A DNA stretch of 64,000 nt, taken from assembly GCA_017408885.1 (NCBI GenBank), contig JAFQTT010000001.1, forward strand, positions 62,001 through 126,000. The letters run 5' to 3'. The DNA comes from Methanocorpusculum sp. Lineage in GTDB: Archaea > Halobacteriota > Methanomicrobia > Methanomicrobiales > Methanocorpusculaceae. Within the stretch, counting starts at the first letter, position 1. The number at the start of each line of letters is the position of its first letter. The position numbers and the translations under genes were made by a program. The notes beneath the pieces were generated by a model that did no database searches, was not told where the DNA came from, and saw only the letters and a program-made list of their open reading frames with translations. Of the stretch, positions 3,274-12,400 are shown one piece after another.

Positions 3274-4587
3274 TTATACAGCCTTTGCAATTGCCTGAAG
3301 CGGGTTTGCGAACTCTTCGATGCTGCCGAAGGTCTCACCGTAAATCTTTGCGGTTCCTTCTGGGGAGAACATCTGGGTTCCTGCATCAAGTGCACATGCT
3401 GCAACGATACATGGGATACCGTTTCCTGCTGCGTGACGGGTAACGACGTGGTTTCCGTTGAAGATACCTGGTCCTCCTCCACCATAGATAGAGTGAGAGA
3501 AGAAGGAGAATCCGACTGCTGCACCCATGACACGACCGTAGTCTGCACCTGGGAGACCGGTTTCGTGCTCAAGAATGTCGTTGAAGTAAAGCAGAGTGGA
3601 GGAAACTGCCTGTGCGAAACGTCCTGCACCAGCGTTGACCATAGTTGCTGCAAGGGTACCTGCGGATGCGTATGCATTCCAGAGCATTGGGTCCTTGGTC
3701 TCGTATGGCTTGAAGTAGCCGCCTGCCTGGCCTGCGGTCTGGGTGATGACTTTGTCCTCAACTGCACGCTCGACAAGGGACTGCATGACAGTACCGACGG
3801 TACCGGTCTGGCCGTTCTCCTTAACGAGATCGTAGACGATGTTGTTTGCGTTAAGACCCTGGTATGCGTAGATTAAGAGCTGTGCACGCTCGAATGGACC
3901 AACTGCGTTTGCCATTTCGAACTGACCTGCCTGCTCGAAGGTTGCTGCGAGTGCTGCACCCTGCATTGCATTGCGGTGGGTCATCATAACGGTCTGGTTT
4001 GCCGGAATGTTACGGAGTGCGTAACCAAGGGACTCGTTGTTCTGCGGGATGGACATGATCATGGAACATGCTCCGCCGTCGAGTGCCTGGGAGACCGGGT
4101 AGGAACCAAAGACTGCTGCCTTGACGGTGTTTGCGTCGAACATGTCGACGTTGAACTCCTCGACAAGTGCGTAGGTGGTTGCTGCTGCAACAGAGAGAAG
4201 GGATGCATCGTAGGTTGCTGCTGCCTCGATACGTGCCTTCGGGACTTTGACTAAGAGAAGCTTACCATCGTTGAAGCGCTTGATCTCGGTGTCATCGCCT
4301 TCCTCAACGGAGACGTACTGCTTGATCTTTGCTTCGATTGCGTCGATGTTGCCTGCGATGTCAAGGTTAAGTTCACGGCCGAGGATCTGCTGGTGCTTTC
4401 CGATCTTACCGTTCTTTAATGCTGCCTCTACACCACCGAGATTGACTGCGACGGTTCTCTTTGCGTTGTCAACAAGGGACTTGATTGCCGGGTTGACGAG
4501 TGGGCTGATCTTTTCGAGTGCAACGTTGCTCTTTAAGAGCTTTCCGTTGTCGTCGTAAAGGTCAATTACATCTGCGTATTTTGCCAT
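3274..4587 (-). CDS. mcrB: Methyl-coenzyme M reductase beta subunit
   Basis: Beta subunit of methyl-CoM reductase and first gene of the mcr operon. It has 437 residues, close to the usual 430-445. The sequence begins MAKYADVIDLYDDNGKLL and carries the glycine-rich C-terminal stretch FFSHSIYGGGGPGIFNGNHV, which in the family lies at the coenzyme channel, followed by TRHAAGNGIPCI. The start at 4587 is preceded by GAGG. It lies downstream of a roughly 190-nt untranslated region that appears structured (see 4588-4780). Confidence 0.98.
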   Translation of the reverse strand: MAKYADVIDLYDDNGKLLKSNVALEKISPLVNPAIKSLVDNAKRTVAVNLGGVEAALKNGKIGKHQQILGRELNLDIAGNIDAIEAKIKQYVSVEEGDDTEIKRFNDGKLLLVKVPKARIEAAATYDASLLSVAAATTYALVEEFNVDMFDANTVKAAVFGSYPVSQALDGGACSMIMSIPQNNESLGYALRNIPANQTVMMTHRNAMQGAALAATFEQAGQFEMANAVGPFERAQLLIYAYQGLNANNIVYDLVKENGQTGTVGTVMQSLVERAVEDKVITQTAGQAGGYFKPYETKDPMLWNAYASAGTLAATMVNAGAGRFAQAVSSTLLYFNDILEHETGLPGADYGRVMGAAVGFSFFSHSIYGGGGPGIFNGNHVVTRHAAGNGIPCIVAACALDAGTQMFSPEGTAKIYGETFGSIEEFANPLQAIAKAV

Positions 4588-5046: not shown

Positions 5047-6030
5047 ATGCGTATTGACACACCATCTCGAATACACATCGCCTTAATCGACTTAAACGGA
5101 TCATACGGAAGAGTCGATGGGGGAATCGGCCTTACTATCGAAAAACCAGGATACTCAATGACCTTAGCTGAAAGCGACAGGAACAGCATTGAGTTTGCCG
5201 AAAAGAACCTGCCGCAGGCAGTAGTTGATGAATACACACTCAAGATTAACCGTGCCGCAGACCGCGTCAGGGCTGAGCTTGGAATTGAAGACCCGTTTGC
5301 ATTTACTGTAAACAAAACCTACCCATCCCACTCAGGCCTCGGCTCCGGCACACAGATTGCTCTGGCAACAGCAAAGCTCATGACAGAACACGCAGGAATC
5401 CACCTGCCAAGCGTTGATCTTGCAAAAATCGTCGGAAGAGCCGGAACATCCGGTATTGGAGCACACGGCTTCGACCTTGGAGGATTCATCGTAGACGGAG
5501 GACACAGCAAAAAACAGAAGAAAGACTTCATGCCGTCCTCCGCCTCTGAACCAATCCCGCCGGTCTTAATCGGCAGATACGACTTCCCTGAAGAATGGGG
5601 CATTGCTCTTGTCAGACCAAAAATCGGAACATACTTCTGCGGAAGAGAAGAGATTAACATCTTCCAGACCTGCTGTCCGCTTCCAAAAGACGAAGTCAAA
5701 CTCCTATCACACATCATCTTCATGAACCTCGTGCCGTTCTTAATCGAACACGACCTCGAAGGATTTTCCGCATGCATCAACCGCATTCAGGAAATTGCAT
5801 TTAACAAATGTGAGTTCCAGCTTCAGCCGCCTGAGGTTACACAGACCATGAACCTCATGAAGGAAGCAGGAATTCCGGGTGTTGGTTTAAGCTCTCTTGG
5901 ACCAACCCTCTTTGGAGTTTACGACGTACACGACACAACAGCAGTAAAAGAGATGCATGATATCCTTGGAGACTCAGCAGATATTCTCTTAACCAAAGGA
6001 CAGAACCACGGTGCTGTCCTCTACCCTTAA
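5047..6030 (+). CDS. Beta-ribofuranosylaminobenzene 5'-phosphate synthase (RFAP synthase)
   Basis: Catalyses the first committed step of methanopterin synthesis: condensation of 4-hydroxybenzoate or 4-aminobenzoate with PRPP. The 327-residue protein is of the GHMP-kinase superfamily type used by methanogens. The N-terminal RIHIALIDLNGSYGRVDGGIGL and the glycine-rich PSHSGLGSGT loop (residues 93-102) are characteristic, and GxGLSSLGPTLFG near the C-terminus is the third GHMP motif. The gene is divergent from the mcr operon, so a C1-carrier biosynthesis gene and the terminal methanogenesis enzyme share an intergenic region. The family is well known in archaea; the exact gene symbol varies. Confidence 0.9.
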   Translation: MRIDTPSRIHIALIDLNGSYGRVDGGIGLTIEKPGYSMTLAESDRNSIEFAEKNLPQAVVDEYTLKINRAADRVRAELGIEDPFAFTVNKTYPSHSGLGSGTQIALATAKLMTEHAGIHLPSVDLAKIVGRAGTSGIGAHGFDLGGFIVDGGHSKKQKKDFMPSSASEPIPPVLIGRYDFPEEWGIALVRPKIGTYFCGREEINIFQTCCPLPKDEVKLLSHIIFMNLVPFLIEHDLEGFSACINRIQEIAFNKCEFQLQPPEVTQTMNLMKEAGIPGVGLSSLGPTLFGVYDVHDTTAVKEMHDILGDSADILLTKGQNHGAVLYP

Positions 6031-6712: not shown

Positions 6713-8149
6713 TTAGAAGTGGCTGTCAGTATCTGCGTCTTCCTCATTTCTCTCGCGGATACGCCAGAGACTCTTCTCAGCCCACTGCTTAGGCATACCG
6801 TGTGCATCTCCCCACGCAGAAAGCTTTGCCTCCCACTCCTTCCACATCTCAGGATATCTTGCTTCGATATCCTTCATGCATGCCACATCAGACGACGGGC
6901 ACATGAAGCATCCTATTCTATCCAGACCTAACTCATAGAGCGGATTGTACGGAGCTTCCTCTCTGAAGAGATACAGCCATACATGCATCGCCGTCCAGTG
7001 CTGAATTGGAGCTGCCGAGAGCTGACAGAGCACATTCTTGTTCCGCCAGACACGCGGGCTTTGCATACGCTTTGCAGACTCAAACTTGCGCTGTCCAATA
7101 AAAGATACAGCCTCTCCCCAGTTCTTCTCGATAATCCGTCTGACAGGTGCTAACTTACATGATTTGCAGCACCATCTAAAGTCCACTGCAGGCGGGCCCT
7201 GAACCTCAAACTCCTTCCAGAACTCTTCACTTCCGCACTCAGAAATTACAGAAAGCCCGTACTTTTCCGCAACGTCTTTGACATTCTGAATTGTCTCTGG
7301 AAACTCAAGACCAGTGTCTGCGAAAATCATCGGCAGTTTTAATCCTGCTTTGAGAGTAATCAGAAGTGTTACCAGACTGTCTTTGCCGCCCGAGTATGAA
7401 ACAGTCGGCGTAAGATCAGGATTTTTCGAGATAACATCCTTTACGAACTCAACAGACTTGTTCTCGTAGATATCAAGGATGTTCTTGTTTGCCCTGATTG
7501 CATCGTCCCAGGTAGTCGGGTGGGTATCAACAACAGGCTTCTGGGTTCTGCGGGTTCTAACCAACTGACCGCGTGTTGCGCCGACGGTCTCCTCATAAGA
7601 CATCTTGGCACGGCCGACAGCCACACACTCTCCTGCCTCGCTCATAACAAAGACCGCATCACCCACTGCAATATCAGGAGATACAAAGGTCACACCTGGC
7701 ATAAGAACGCTGCTTCCGTCCTTAATATATCCTGCCGCCTCATCATTGACGCGGATAATACGCTTAGTTGGAGAAGCGAACTCTGCCGCAGCCTCACGGG
7801 GAAGAACCTCCCAGCGGTTCTCTGCCGGAAGGAAACGGATTGCACAGACAACAGCACCGCCTAAGATAATCTCCTCCATTCTGTCCTCATCAGGCACCTT
7901 GTTGAGAATTGCTATCTGATCATCCGGAATCAGCGGAACTCCGAACTGCTCCTCGAAGATGCGGTTTACAAGCGTTCTGTCACGTTCAAAAGCAGGGCGG
8001 ACATCACCCGGAGGTGTTACAGATACAGGGCGTGTCTTTGCTCCGCATGTGCAAATCCGGCCCATTACAGGCGCGTGGCAGACATCACACCAGTAGAACG
8101 GAACCGGTGCTAAGAACGGTGAATTTTTTGCAGGTCTTCTCTGAGCCAT
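6713..8149 (-). CDS. PAPS-reductase-family PP-loop protein with zinc ribbon and PUA domain
   Basis: A 478-residue multidomain protein. An N-terminal zinc ribbon (Cys21, Cys24, Cys33, Cys35) is followed by a PUA-like RNA-binding region (about 128-205). A PAPS-reductase/sulfotransferase PP-loop domain follows, with SYSGGKDSLV at 251-260. The C-terminal half carries Cys327, Cys328, Cys331, Cys414 and Cys417, a CC..C/C..C arrangement like the 4Fe-4S ligands of assimilatory APS reductases. PP-loop chemistry adenylates a substrate. The PUA domain suggests that the substrate is RNA, but this is inference. Last gene of a tight four-gene operon, 2 nt after the DUF2284 gene. It could be a sulfonucleotide reductase or an RNA thiolation enzyme. 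Confidence 0.82.
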   Translation of the reverse strand: MAQRRPAKNSPFLAPVPFYWCDVCHAPVMGRICTCGAKTRPVSVTPPGDVRPAFERDRTLVNRIFEEQFGVPLIPDDQIAILNKVPDEDRMEEIILGGAVVCAIRFLPAENRWEVLPREAAAEFASPTKRIIRVNDEAAGYIKDGSSVLMPGVTFVSPDIAVGDAVFVMSEAGECVAVGRAKMSYEETVGATRGQLVRTRRTQKPVVDTHPTTWDDAIRANKNILDIYENKSVEFVKDVISKNPDLTPTVSYSGGKDSLVTLLITLKAGLKLPMIFADTGLEFPETIQNVKDVAEKYGLSVISECGSEEFWKEFEVQGPPAVDFRWCCKSCKLAPVRRIIEKNWGEAVSFIGQRKFESAKRMQSPRVWRNKNVLCQLSAAPIQHWTAMHVWLYLFREEAPYNPLYELGLDRIGCFMCPSSDVACMKDIEARYPEMWKEWEAKLSAWGDAHGMPKQWAEKSLWRIRERNEEDADTDSHF

Positions 8150-8151
8150 AT

Positions 8152-8751
8152 TTACTCCAGTAAAAGCATCATAACAGTAGTCATAGGTGAATCGAGCTTC
8201 GAACCGCCCGGAACATCAGTGCAGGTAAGAATGCCGAGCTCCCAGCCGGCAGCCTTGACTGTTGCGTACACATCTATTCCGGCAGCCTCCATACTCGGGC
8301 GCATCTTTTTGCGAAGCCGGCAGTCCGAGGCTGTTGCCCCTTTTTCCTTTGCGGCACAGGATTTACACCATCCGCACTGGTGGCCTGTATAGCAGAGAAC
8401 CTTGTAGAATCCATCCTCGAAGGCCATCTTCTCCATATCATACATCATCTGCTGAACATATGATGTAAGTTCGCGGGTTACAAGACGCTCAGGCCCAGCT
8501 TCTGCAACATCTCCGTCGAAACGCACGAGAAGTGCTGTCTTGAACTCCTTCAACACCGCGGCAGTCTCTGATGGTGTAGGTGAGTATGGAGGACAACCAA
8601 ATCTGCGGCCAAAACCCTGACATCCGAAATAACACTTCATCCGAACCCACTCGGCTGTAACAACCGAAGACGCAGGAATTGCTGCGGCATCTGCTCCGCG
8701 CTTTCTGGCAAACGCGGTCAGCTTTTCGATTTCTTCCTCAATCGTGTTCAT
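8152..8751 (-). CDS. DUF2284 family metal-binding protein
   Basis: Predicted cytoplasmic metal- or Fe-S-binding protein of about 199 residues. I take the ATG at 8751 (MNTIEEEIEKL), which has a GGAGAGGA ribosome site 4 nt upstream; the longer frame up to 8826 would bury the end of ribL. Cysteine groups lie at KCYFGCQGFGRRFGCPP and CYTGHQCGWCKSC, both typical of DUF2284. The gene overlaps ribL by 14 nt and is followed after 2 nt by the PAPS-reductase-like gene, so these are surely co-transcribed. The function of the family is not established. Confidence 0.8.
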   Translation of the reverse strand: MNTIEEEIEKLTAFARKRGADAAAIPASSVVTAEWVRMKCYFGCQGFGRRFGCPPYSPTPSETAAVLKEFKTALLVRFDGDVAEAGPERLVTRELTSYVQQMMYDMEKMAFEDGFYKVLCYTGHQCGWCKSCAAKEKGATASDCRLRKKMRPSMEAAGIDVYATVKAAGWELGILTCTDVPGGSKLDSPMTTVMMLLLE

Positions 8752-9172
8752 TATTTCCTCTCCTGCGGATAGCCTCTTCGATAATCTGCGTAGATGAGGT
8801 GAACTGAGAGCCTGTGTATGCCCCAATTCTTACAACCTCTGCATTTATGCCGCGCTCTGCAAGCTGGCTGCGAAGCTTTTCATCATCGAAGTACTGGTTA
8901 AAGCCTAAAGTAATTACTGCCGGATCTATCTCGAGAATCGGGCGGAACATATCCTCTTTATCTCCTAAGATTGCGTGGTCAACACATTTGAGGCTCTTAA
9001 TCATCATAAGTCTCTGTTCCTCAGAGACGATAGGTGCCGGCTTGTGGCGTACGTTTCTTTTACGGGATACAATTACCCACAGCTCGTCGCCGAGCTTCTT
9101 TGATTCGGAGAGGAAGTGAACATGCCCCGGGTGGAGAATGTCAAAAGTACCTGTTGCAACAATTCTTTTCAT
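8738..9172 (-). CDS. ribL: Archaeal FAD synthase (FMN adenylyltransferase)
   Basis: Transfers AMP from ATP (CTP also serves in characterised homologues) to FMN, making FAD. It is a 144-residue nucleotidyltransferase of the cytidylyltransferase fold with GTFDILHPGHVHFL (HPGH at 14-17), SRKRNVRHKP and a C-terminal FTSSTQII motif corresponding to ISSTxI. The length matches the archaeal RibL type rather than bacterial RibF. The start at 9172 shares one base with the JAMM gene stop, and the 3' end overlaps the DUF2284 gene. It provides FAD for the flavoenzymes of the cell. Confidence 0.88.
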   Translation of the reverse strand: MKRIVATGTFDILHPGHVHFLSESKKLGDELWVIVSRKRNVRHKPAPIVSEEQRLMMIKSLKCVDHAILGDKEDMFRPILEIDPAVITLGFNQYFDDEKLRSQLAERGINAEVVRIGAYTGSQFTSSTQIIEEAIRRRGNNEHD

Positions 9173-9540
9173 TATAAGATATCCAGATGTTTTGGCTGTC
9201 CGTGTCTGTCGTATGCCTGCCAGGCTGTTTCATTAAAGGGCTGACCTGTTATGATATGAACCTGCCCTGTCTCAGCGAATGTCGAGAGATCAGCATCTGA
9301 TGGGATGGTTGGACCTTCCGGGTGGCTGTGGGCTGTTCCGACAAAACCCATTCCAAGCGGTATCATATCCATGAAAATGGATGCTGAGTCTTCACCTGTA
9401 ACAGTCCCGGCTATTGGGTAGACAATGTTGATGATACCCTCATCTGCCCCAAGCATTACCATGTATTCGTTCGTATACGAGGATTTTCCCATCTCCAGAA
9501 GGAGATGCAGGGTTTCTTTCTCTATCCCGCGGACAAACAT
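9172..9540 (-). CDS. JAMM/MPN zinc metalloprotease
   Basis: Predicted zinc isopeptidase of the JAB1/MPN family, 122 residues. The full JAMM signature is present: Glu25, then His71-x-His73-x7-Ser81-x2-Asp84 (HSHPEG...SDAD). In archaea such enzymes remove ubiquitin-like SAMP proteins or process sulfur-carrier proteins. First gene of the four-gene operon, with a TAATG stop/start overlap into ribL. No ubiquitin-like partner lies in the window, so the substrate is unknown. Confidence 0.85.
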   Translation of the reverse strand: MFVRGIEKETLHLLLEMGKSSYTNEYMVMLGADEGIINIVYPIAGTVTGEDSASIFMDMIPLGMGFVGTAHSHPEGPTIPSDADLSTFAETGQVHIITGQPFNETAWQAYDRHGQPKHLDIL

Positions 9541-11545: not shown

Positions 11546-12400
11546 TCAGACATTTGGACTGTCGATGTCAGCATAGTACGGCTTGATATCAAGGACAGGT
11601 GTTCCGTCAAGCATCTCAAGTCCTCTGACAGAAAGCCTGTTGCCGTCAATCTCTAAAAGTTTGACAAGCGTTAATGAGATTGGATTTGGACGAGCAGGGC
11701 TTCTGGTTGAAAAAACACCGCGGGCAGGTCCATTTGGATCTCTTCCTGATTTCGTCAGAAGAACAGTTCTGTCTGAACGGTCAAACCAGCAAAGCACAAA
11801 GATATCATCACCTGCAAAAAGCCCGTCAAGAGCGTCTTCGAACTCAGGATAAATCTCAATCTCACTTATGTCGTTTGTAATTCTGCCCTGTTTTGGCGCA
11901 GAACCCGCCTCTTTGTATGGAGAGTGTACGATTCCAACAGGCATGCACACAGGCTTTGGAACAGAGCGGCGCTCTTCCTCTCTTTTTTTGAGCATATCAA
12001 GCGCCTGATTGCACATCCAGTCACATGAACTGATATACGGATTCTCACGCGGGACATGTGTGTATGATACAGATGCATAGTCCTTTGAAAGCCTGACCGC
12101 CTCTGAAAATAGCGGCTTTAATGCAGGAGAACGCACAGCATACTGACCTCTAAGCTGCCGAATCATCAGCTCACTGTCAGAATAAACATCAAGCTCAGTT
12201 TCATTTGGAGTGCAGTACTTTTTAGCCGAGCGAAGAGCACTGATTAGAGCAGTGTATTCCGCGAAGTTATTTGTATTCTCGCCTGCTCCGGCAGATTCAG
12301 CCTCCAACACCTCTAATCCATCAAGTATAATCCATGCACAGGCAGCAAGTCCGGGATTTCCTCTGGATGCTCCGTCAGTATATATCGTCAGTTTCCTCAT
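11546..12400 (-). CDS. RNase HI-TrmO (TsaA) fusion protein
   Basis: A 284-residue protein with two recognisable domains. Residues 1 to about 140 are an RNase HI fold with TDGASRGNPG and all four acidic positions (Asp9, Glu48, Asp75, Asp127). Residues about 150-284 are a TrmO/TsaA beta-barrel, with PVGIVHSPYK, GVFSTRSPARPNPI and LEMLDGTPVLDIKPY; in bacteria TrmO N6-methylates t6A37 in tRNA. RNase HI cleaves the RNA strand of RNA-DNA hybrids. The reading frame is continuous across the junction. Either domain could work alone; the fused arrangement is unusual in my knowledge. Confidence 0.85.
   Translation of the reverse strand: MRKLTIYTDGASRGNPGLAACAWIILDGLEVLEAESAGAGENTNNFAEYTALISALRSAKKYCTPNETELDVYSDSELMIRQLRGQYAVRSPALKPLFSEAVRLSKDYASVSYTHVPRENPYISSCDWMCNQALDMLKKREEERRSVPKPVCMPVGIVHSPYKEAGSAPKQGRITNDISEIEIYPEFEDALDGLFAGDDIFVLCWFDRSDRTVLLTKSGRDPNGPARGVFSTRSPARPNPISLTLVKLLEIDGNRLSVRGLEMLDGTPVLDIKPYYADIDSPNV

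Follow-up and report, generated by a model that had tools for sequence, protein, structure and literature searches.

Four consecutive genes on the minus strand of a gut-type Methanocorpusculum sp. genome (contig JAFQTT010000001.1, positions 62,001 to 126,000; this whole 64,000-nucleotide (nt) stretch is called the window) are best read, with a probability of about 0.55, as two independent modules that were concatenated once. The last gene encodes a PUA-PP-loop protein, predicted from its sequence to be a housekeeping enzyme with a zinc ribbon, a PUA domain and a [4Fe-4S] cluster that would insert sulfur into RNA in an ATP-dependent manner. The four genes, in order of transcription, were as follows.

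9172-9540, minus strand: JAMM/MPN+ metalloprotease gene, AfJAMM-type, 122 amino acids (aa); Pfam Prok-JAB, 40.6 bits
8738-9172, minus strand: RibL-type flavin adenine dinucleotide (FAD) synthase (FADS), a predicted nucleotidyltransferase with a GTFDxxHxGH motif, 144 aa; Pfam CTP_transf_like, 77.9 bits
8152-8751, minus strand: DUF2284 cysteine-rich protein, 199 aa, about 8 conserved cysteines; Pfam DUF2284, 142.7 bits
6713-8149, minus strand: zinc-ribbon, pre-PUA/PUA and PAPS-reductase-like PP-loop protein (type A), 478 aa; Pfam PUA and PAPS_reduct; PADLOC BrxP, 147.5 bits over the PP-loop domain; AlphaFold2 model with a mean predicted local distance difference test (pLDDT) of 85

The open reading frame (ORF) list of the window placed all four genes on this strand at this location. 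The JAMM stop and FADS start codons share 1 nt (TAATG), the overlap between FADS and DUF2284 is 14 nt long, and a gap of 2 nt separates DUF2284 from the PUA-PP-loop gene. The DUF2284 start was set at the ATG at 8751 in place of a longer TTG ORF. Every Pfam score, including 158.7 bits for PAPS_reduct, exceeded its curated cut-off by a wide margin. Because relatives carry all four ORFs at about 60-95% identity, none of these is a chance ORF. The tight cluster and the family identities described in an earlier note on this DNA were thus confirmed by the coordinates and the Pfam matches.

Two old gene units were joined once

The genes of the 31 relatives were compared for linkage. The PUA-PP-loop gene was joined to JAMM-FADS-DUF2284 only in part of Methanocorpusculum. 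In the protein tree, all joined copies formed one clade (support 88/99). A single change accounted for the joined state in 86% of the bootstrap trees, and 0 of 500 shuffles gave a value as low.

In other lineages the type A gene was adjoined by hisH, recognised from its sequence. This was observed in f1, f2, f4, f5, f6, f14 and f24 as well as in unjoined Methanocorpusculum (families are given as f-numbers in the style f1-f24, and 25 families were sampled). hisH lies directly 3' of the type A gene in L036, L041, L142, L149 and others, across seven families. Part of the joined clade has the order JAMM-FADS-DUF2284-PUA-PP-loop-hisH, and hisH was not found beside the PUA-PP-loop gene in the window or in the genomes closest to it. 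A role of hisH as functional partner was considered and rejected; the association is old and looks like housekeeping co-location, and no mechanism was found.

Two old units, JAMM-RibL(-DUF2284) and PUA-PP-loop, were thus joined once and recently within the Methanocorpusculum lineage. Therefore, the operon itself is no evidence for a four-gene pathway. The earlier note had proposed such a pathway of sulfur transfer or RNA thiolation, with a ubiquitin-like carrier processed by the JAMM enzyme and a flavin step. The tight overlapping gene order is preserved across the joined clade, and the genome has one ThiS-family and two clear ThiF/E1-like proteins, so that a ubiquitin-like sulfur carrier is possible. 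However, the linkage is confined to one clade of one genus, and many archaea have JAMM and RibL without any PUA-PP-loop gene. The latter stands mostly with hisH, not with ubiquitin-like or JAMM genes, and its paralog is fused to a cysteine desulfurase rather than to a ubiquitin-like carrier. Outside the joined clade, both in Methanocorpusculum and in the remaining Methanomicrobiales families, the PUA-PP-loop gene was separate from JAMM-RibL-DUF2284 and mostly had hisH beside it, which is the outcome that the earlier note had named as refuting its proposal. On these linkage data the single pathway was rejected, and we regard it as very improbable. Of the earlier proposal, the JAMM and flavin link was lost, and the RNA and sulfur/adenylate half was retained for the last gene only.

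Domains, motifs and distribution of the PUA-PP-loop protein

The features within the PUA-PP-loop gene were located as follows.

8045-8089, minus strand: N-terminal zinc-ribbon cysteines C21, C24, C33 and C35
7547-7756, minus strand: PUA domain, residues 132-201; Pfam PF01472, 59.6 bits
6893-7408, minus strand: PP-loop/PAPS-reductase-like domain, residues 248-419; Pfam PF01507
7376-7393, minus strand: intact PP-loop motif SGGKDS, residues 253-258
7166-7171, minus strand: putative iron-sulfur (Fe-S) cysteine pair C327-C328, aligned with the CC pair of the adenosine 5'-phosphosulfate (APS) reductases 2goy and 7lhr
6899-6910, minus strand: putative Fe-S motif CxxC (C414, C417), aligned with GCxxC of the APS reductases

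Motif conservation was surveyed in 39 sequences, 28 of type A and 11 of type B, the latter being the paralog described below. SGGKDS, the four ribbon cysteines and C327, C328, C414 and C417 never varied (39/39). The PUA domain showed structural matches to PH0734.1, APE0525 and Ta1423 in Foldseek. The whole AlphaFold2 model matched APS and 3'-phosphoadenosine 5'-phosphosulfate (PAPS) reductases, the PAPS domains of eukaryotic FAD synthases, and TtuA (E 4e-7). The PUA domain and the possible Fe-S cysteines pointed out earlier were therefore supported by the Pfam match and by the alignment of CC...CxxC with APS reductases.

Of the families sampled, only nine, all of methanogens (f1-f6, f8, f14 and f24), had full-length relatives, and almost all genomes of the order encoded the protein. 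A ferredoxin-type C-terminus was present in type A of f8, f14 and f24 and in type B of f8 and f14. This region has been lost from type A in Methanomicrobiales, including the window protein. Text searches of the literature for the family names returned almost nothing.

These features were compared with those of the CysH-type APS and PAPS reductases, since the protein could itself be a sulfonucleotide reductase with a ferredoxin donor in cis or separate. The PAPS_reduct fold and the CC...CxxC [4Fe-4S] motif of the APS type are shared, the orthologs carry ferredoxin domains, and weak APS reductase activity was reported for MJ0973, a possibly related protein that is described as an archaeal homologue of Apr (PMC3448663). 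However, the catalytic cysteine motif ECGxH occurred in 0/39 type A and B sequences, and SGGKDS is intact at a position where sulfonucleotide reductases read SGAED or SSFGIQ and have lost the loop. The zinc ribbon and a PUA domain of the RNA-binding type, together with a paralog that carries a cysteine desulfurase in the same chain, also argue against a reductase. ATP sulfurylase (PF01747) was detected in 0/20 genomes by a search that was positive in 5/14 control genomes. The search of the own genome for PAPS_reduct proteins (CysH/CysD family) returned only the window protein and one paralog. Therefore, no APS/PAPS route is visible. The reductase identity was rejected on the motifs and the missing ATP sulfurylase, and we consider it quite improbable.

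Comparison with BrxP and the type B paralog

Of the models tested, BrxP of bacteriophage exclusion (BREX) type 4 gave the best match to the PP-loop domain (147.5 bits, residues 213-451 on profile positions 98-347 of 779), with weaker matches to PRK02090/CysH (79.5 bits) and DndC (about 43 bits), bit scores across different libraries being comparable only roughly. An ortholog with the C-terminus matched BrxP over profile positions 100-500 of 779 at 200.6 bits. BrxP consists of a PP-loop domain, a small alpha+beta domain and ferredoxin-like cysteines, and the orthologs of the window protein share this following domain and these cysteines (PMC12839542). In contrast, BrxP is fused to DUF4007 and located in DNA phosphorothioation loci, whereas the window protein has a zinc ribbon and PUA, no C-terminal ferredoxin and a far lower score. 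A genuine BrxP-like protein scoring 537 bits was observed in an archaeal genome of f10 (L090:136-1428, minus strand) and may belong to a BREX type 4 locus. Because a genuine archaeal BrxP reaches this score, the window protein is a relative and not BrxP. Its profile match is partial, and the neighbours in the cases seen were housekeeping genes rather than a BREX locus around a full-length BrxP with DUF4007. The PRK13795-type archaeal hypothetical proteins (NF010366-NF010369) are full-length relatives, with up to 533.5 bits; the window protein was below the curated cut-offs, and type A of Methanomicrobiales differs in lacking the C-terminal ferredoxin region.

The own-genome paralog (type B) is a 916-aa fusion of a PUA-like/PP-loop part with a SufS-like cysteine desulfurase (L033:3556-6306, minus strand; G000:C4). 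The desulfurase part scored 404 bits for Aminotran_5 and 421 bits for SufS, under the SufS model cut-off of 475, and retains the SGHK lysine and the RSGMHC cysteine. Frames of fused length (867-1082 aa) occurred in about 26 of the 31 relatives. In most other Methanomicrobiales searched, the desulfurase domain shared one long frame with the PP-loop part, and this held in every case covered by both searches. G019, G021 and G026 had type B in unfused form only. The neighbours of type B showed no consistency between lineages.

The BrxP match raises the question of DNA phosphorothioation or phage defence as the role of the family, as a BrxP/DndC relative. BrxP was the top PADLOC match of the window protein and reached up to 200 bits in orthologs, and the desulfurase part of type B matches SspA/DndA. 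However, no BREX, Dnd or Ssp genes were noticed beside the PUA-PP-loop gene. A defence gene would be patchy, whereas this gene is near-universal in the order and lies beside housekeeping genes such as hisH. Furthermore, a true BrxP has 537 bits, and PUA stands here in place of DUF4007. A role in DNA phosphorothioation or phage defence is therefore most improbable.

Proposed RNA sulfur insertion

The domains, the motifs, the fusion of the paralog with a desulfurase and the gene history were read directly from the sequences. In RNA thiolation by NcsA, TtuA and TtcA, ATP-dependent adenylation of RNA and transfer of sulfur held by a [4Fe-4S] cluster are established (PMC10067955). In DndC, ATP pyrophosphatase activity is coupled to an Fe-S cluster and to a cysteine desulfurase (PMC10853773). 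The window protein resembles TtuA, NcsA and TtcA in its intact SGGKDS-type loop, its Fe-S cysteines, its structural match to TtuA and its presumed RNA substrate. It differs in having CC plus CxxC where those enzymes have three cluster cysteines (PMC10067955), and in belonging to another subfamily with another RNA-binding domain. Because the thiolase/DndC parts are present together with an RNA-type accessory domain and housekeeping inheritance, we infer insertion of sulfur into RNA.

In the proposed mechanism, the zinc ribbon and PUA domains would hold the RNA. The SGGKDS loop would spend ATP to adenylate the target oxygen, which may lie in a base or, as with the BrxP/Dnd enzymes, in the backbone, with release of pyrophosphate, and a [4Fe-4S] cluster on C327, C328, C414 and C417 would present the sulfur. 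The sulfur could be donated by a cysteine desulfurase, or by sulfide in these methanogens of sulfidic habitats. Displacement of AMP by the sulfur would then leave thiolated RNA. The RNA substrate, the adenylation, the binding of the cluster and the sulfur donor are what we infer by analogy with the enzymes above.

Several points weigh against RNA sulfur insertion or against the independence of the two modules. The PUA domain is suggestive but not proof of RNA binding. All four cysteines may serve as cluster ligands, as they do in APS reductase, in which case no iron would be free to take up sulfur in the manner of NcsA/TtuA. PAPS reductases are still top-ranked by both Foldseek and Pfam, the ferredoxin domains of the orthologs equally fit a reductase, and the activity of MJ0973 and the rough comparability of the bit scores belong on the same side. 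In addition, the joined operon was retained throughout the whole clade, and its co-expression may therefore have some use.

Nevertheless, the RNA-sulfur reading of the PUA-PP-loop gene is the best-supported explanation on these sequences. The sulfur/adenylate chemistry once suggested for the last gene was strengthened by the intact ATP pyrophosphatase loop, the missing reductase nucleophile, the BrxP match and the desulfurase-fused paralog. More tentatively, types A and B may be RNA-directed cousins of BrxP, that is, core, vertically inherited methanogen enzymes that would write a not-yet-assigned sulfur mark (base thiolation or even a backbone phosphorothioate) on tRNA or rRNA, type B with its own cysteine desulfurase.

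The JAMM-RibL pair

In 51 of 67 archaeal genus representatives and in 23 of 25 families, JAMM and FADS lay side by side with the same orientation (the place of FADS was not listed for two f15 genomes), often with overlapping stop and start codons. Among the 31 relatives, the two genes were neighbours in 29/29 genomes where both were found. In f8 and most f9 genera the adjacency is gone and both genes are retained. A FADS homologue was present in 147/147 genomes of the phylum, nearly always in one copy, and a single strong JAMM profile match per genome was obtained in 69/69 archaeal genomes. The JAMM-RibL pair is ancient. Its linkage is not new, since Makarova and Koonin described it in 2010 as a pair of Jab/arCOG01139 and a cytidylyltransferase/arCOG01222 and proposed that it is a ubiquitin-like conjugation tandem (PMC2948915). 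The two gene families and their adjacency are the same as in the window, whereas the reported pair is without DUF2284 and the PUA-PP-loop gene. The 2010 text stated that Jab is absent from many methanogens (PMC2948915), unlike the 69/69 obtained here.

The window JAMM has the complete motif E25...HSH(x7)SxxD, listed below.

9289-9330, minus strand: JAMM zinc motif HSHPEGPTIPSDAD (H71, H73, S81, D84; E25 upstream)

E25, H71, S72, H73, S81 and D84 were invariant in an alignment of 22 JAMMs, and HxH(x7)SxxD was present in 30 of 32 FADS-linked JAMMs. The best solved relative was AfJAMM/AF2198 (E 1e-30). The HvJAMM1 desampylase model NF041370 gave 23.7 bits for the window JAMM against a cut-off of 130, and did not match the FADS-linked haloarchaeal-type JAMM. 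HvJAMM2 is presumably HVO_1016, adjoining ribL. AfJAMM was grouped with HvJAMM2 and not with the proven desampylase HvJAMM1; HvJAMM2 is required for TBP2 turnover in Haloferax, and HvJAMM2 and AfJAMM are each inactive alone in vitro (PMC4895103). The Methanocorpusculum protein is probably an isopeptidase of this HvJAMM2/AfJAMM type that needs a partner. The suggested processing of ubiquitin-like sulfur carriers by this JAMM was not upheld, because the group into which it falls is not known to process sulfur carriers and, by itself, showed no activity in vitro (PMC4895103).

The nucleotidyltransferase was assigned to the RibL family (HVO_1015/MJ1179) on its motif, universality and gene context, and its activity is predicted; the nearest solved structure was 3glv (E 3e-36). 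According to the statement in PMC8305020 that cites Mashhadi 2010, M. jannaschii RibL (MJ1179) is a demonstrated FAD synthetase, and Haloferax ribL (HVO_1015) is 50% identical to it.

The pair could also act as a ubiquitin-like conjugation/deconjugation or proteasome-linked device, in which the nucleotidyltransferase partners or activates the otherwise inactive JAMM. Such a device was proposed in 2010 (PMC2948915), and the adjacency in 51/67 genera, the near universality of both genes and the need for JAMM2 in TBP2 turnover despite its inactivity alone (PMC4895103) are consistent with it. However, the FAD synthetase role, as given in that statement of PMC8305020, suffices to explain the universality of RibL, and both genes persist in f8 and most f9 genera where the adjacency was lost. 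We consider this device rather unlikely.

The DUF2284 protein and neighbouring genes

DUF2284 often follows JAMM-FADS in the 31 relatives and was added in several Methanomicrobiales families. Sequence search returned no solved relative. A fold search with its model (pLDDT 73) gave weak top matches, mostly of the nitroreductase/QueG/iodotyrosine deiodinase/CblC class (best E 0.009). Therefore, no function is claimed. A flavin- or cobalamin-type fold, if right, would fit beside RibL and is only a lead from the model.

Elsewhere in the window, mcrB was read from its translation at 3274-4587. Close to it lies a beta-RFAP synthase of the methanopterin pathway (5047-6030; 382.9 bits against a cut-off of 328), which is ordinary for a methanogen. 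A single ORF at 11546-12400 on the minus strand combines an RNase H domain with a TrmO (t6A37 N6-methyltransferase) domain. This unusual pairing was also present in the relative L034 with 90% identity. The sigma-70 and terminator scan of the window is uninformative for an archaeon.

Implications

Genes can be packed into a tight operon within one genus without forming a pathway. Some enzymes of RNA sulfur chemistry in methanogens may still await assignment, and the conserved pair of PUA-PP-loop paralogs, one with a fused sulfur donor, allows a direct gene-to-modification test. If the relationship to BrxP is as proposed, housekeeping RNA thiolation would be linked with the DNA phosphorothioation of phage defence.

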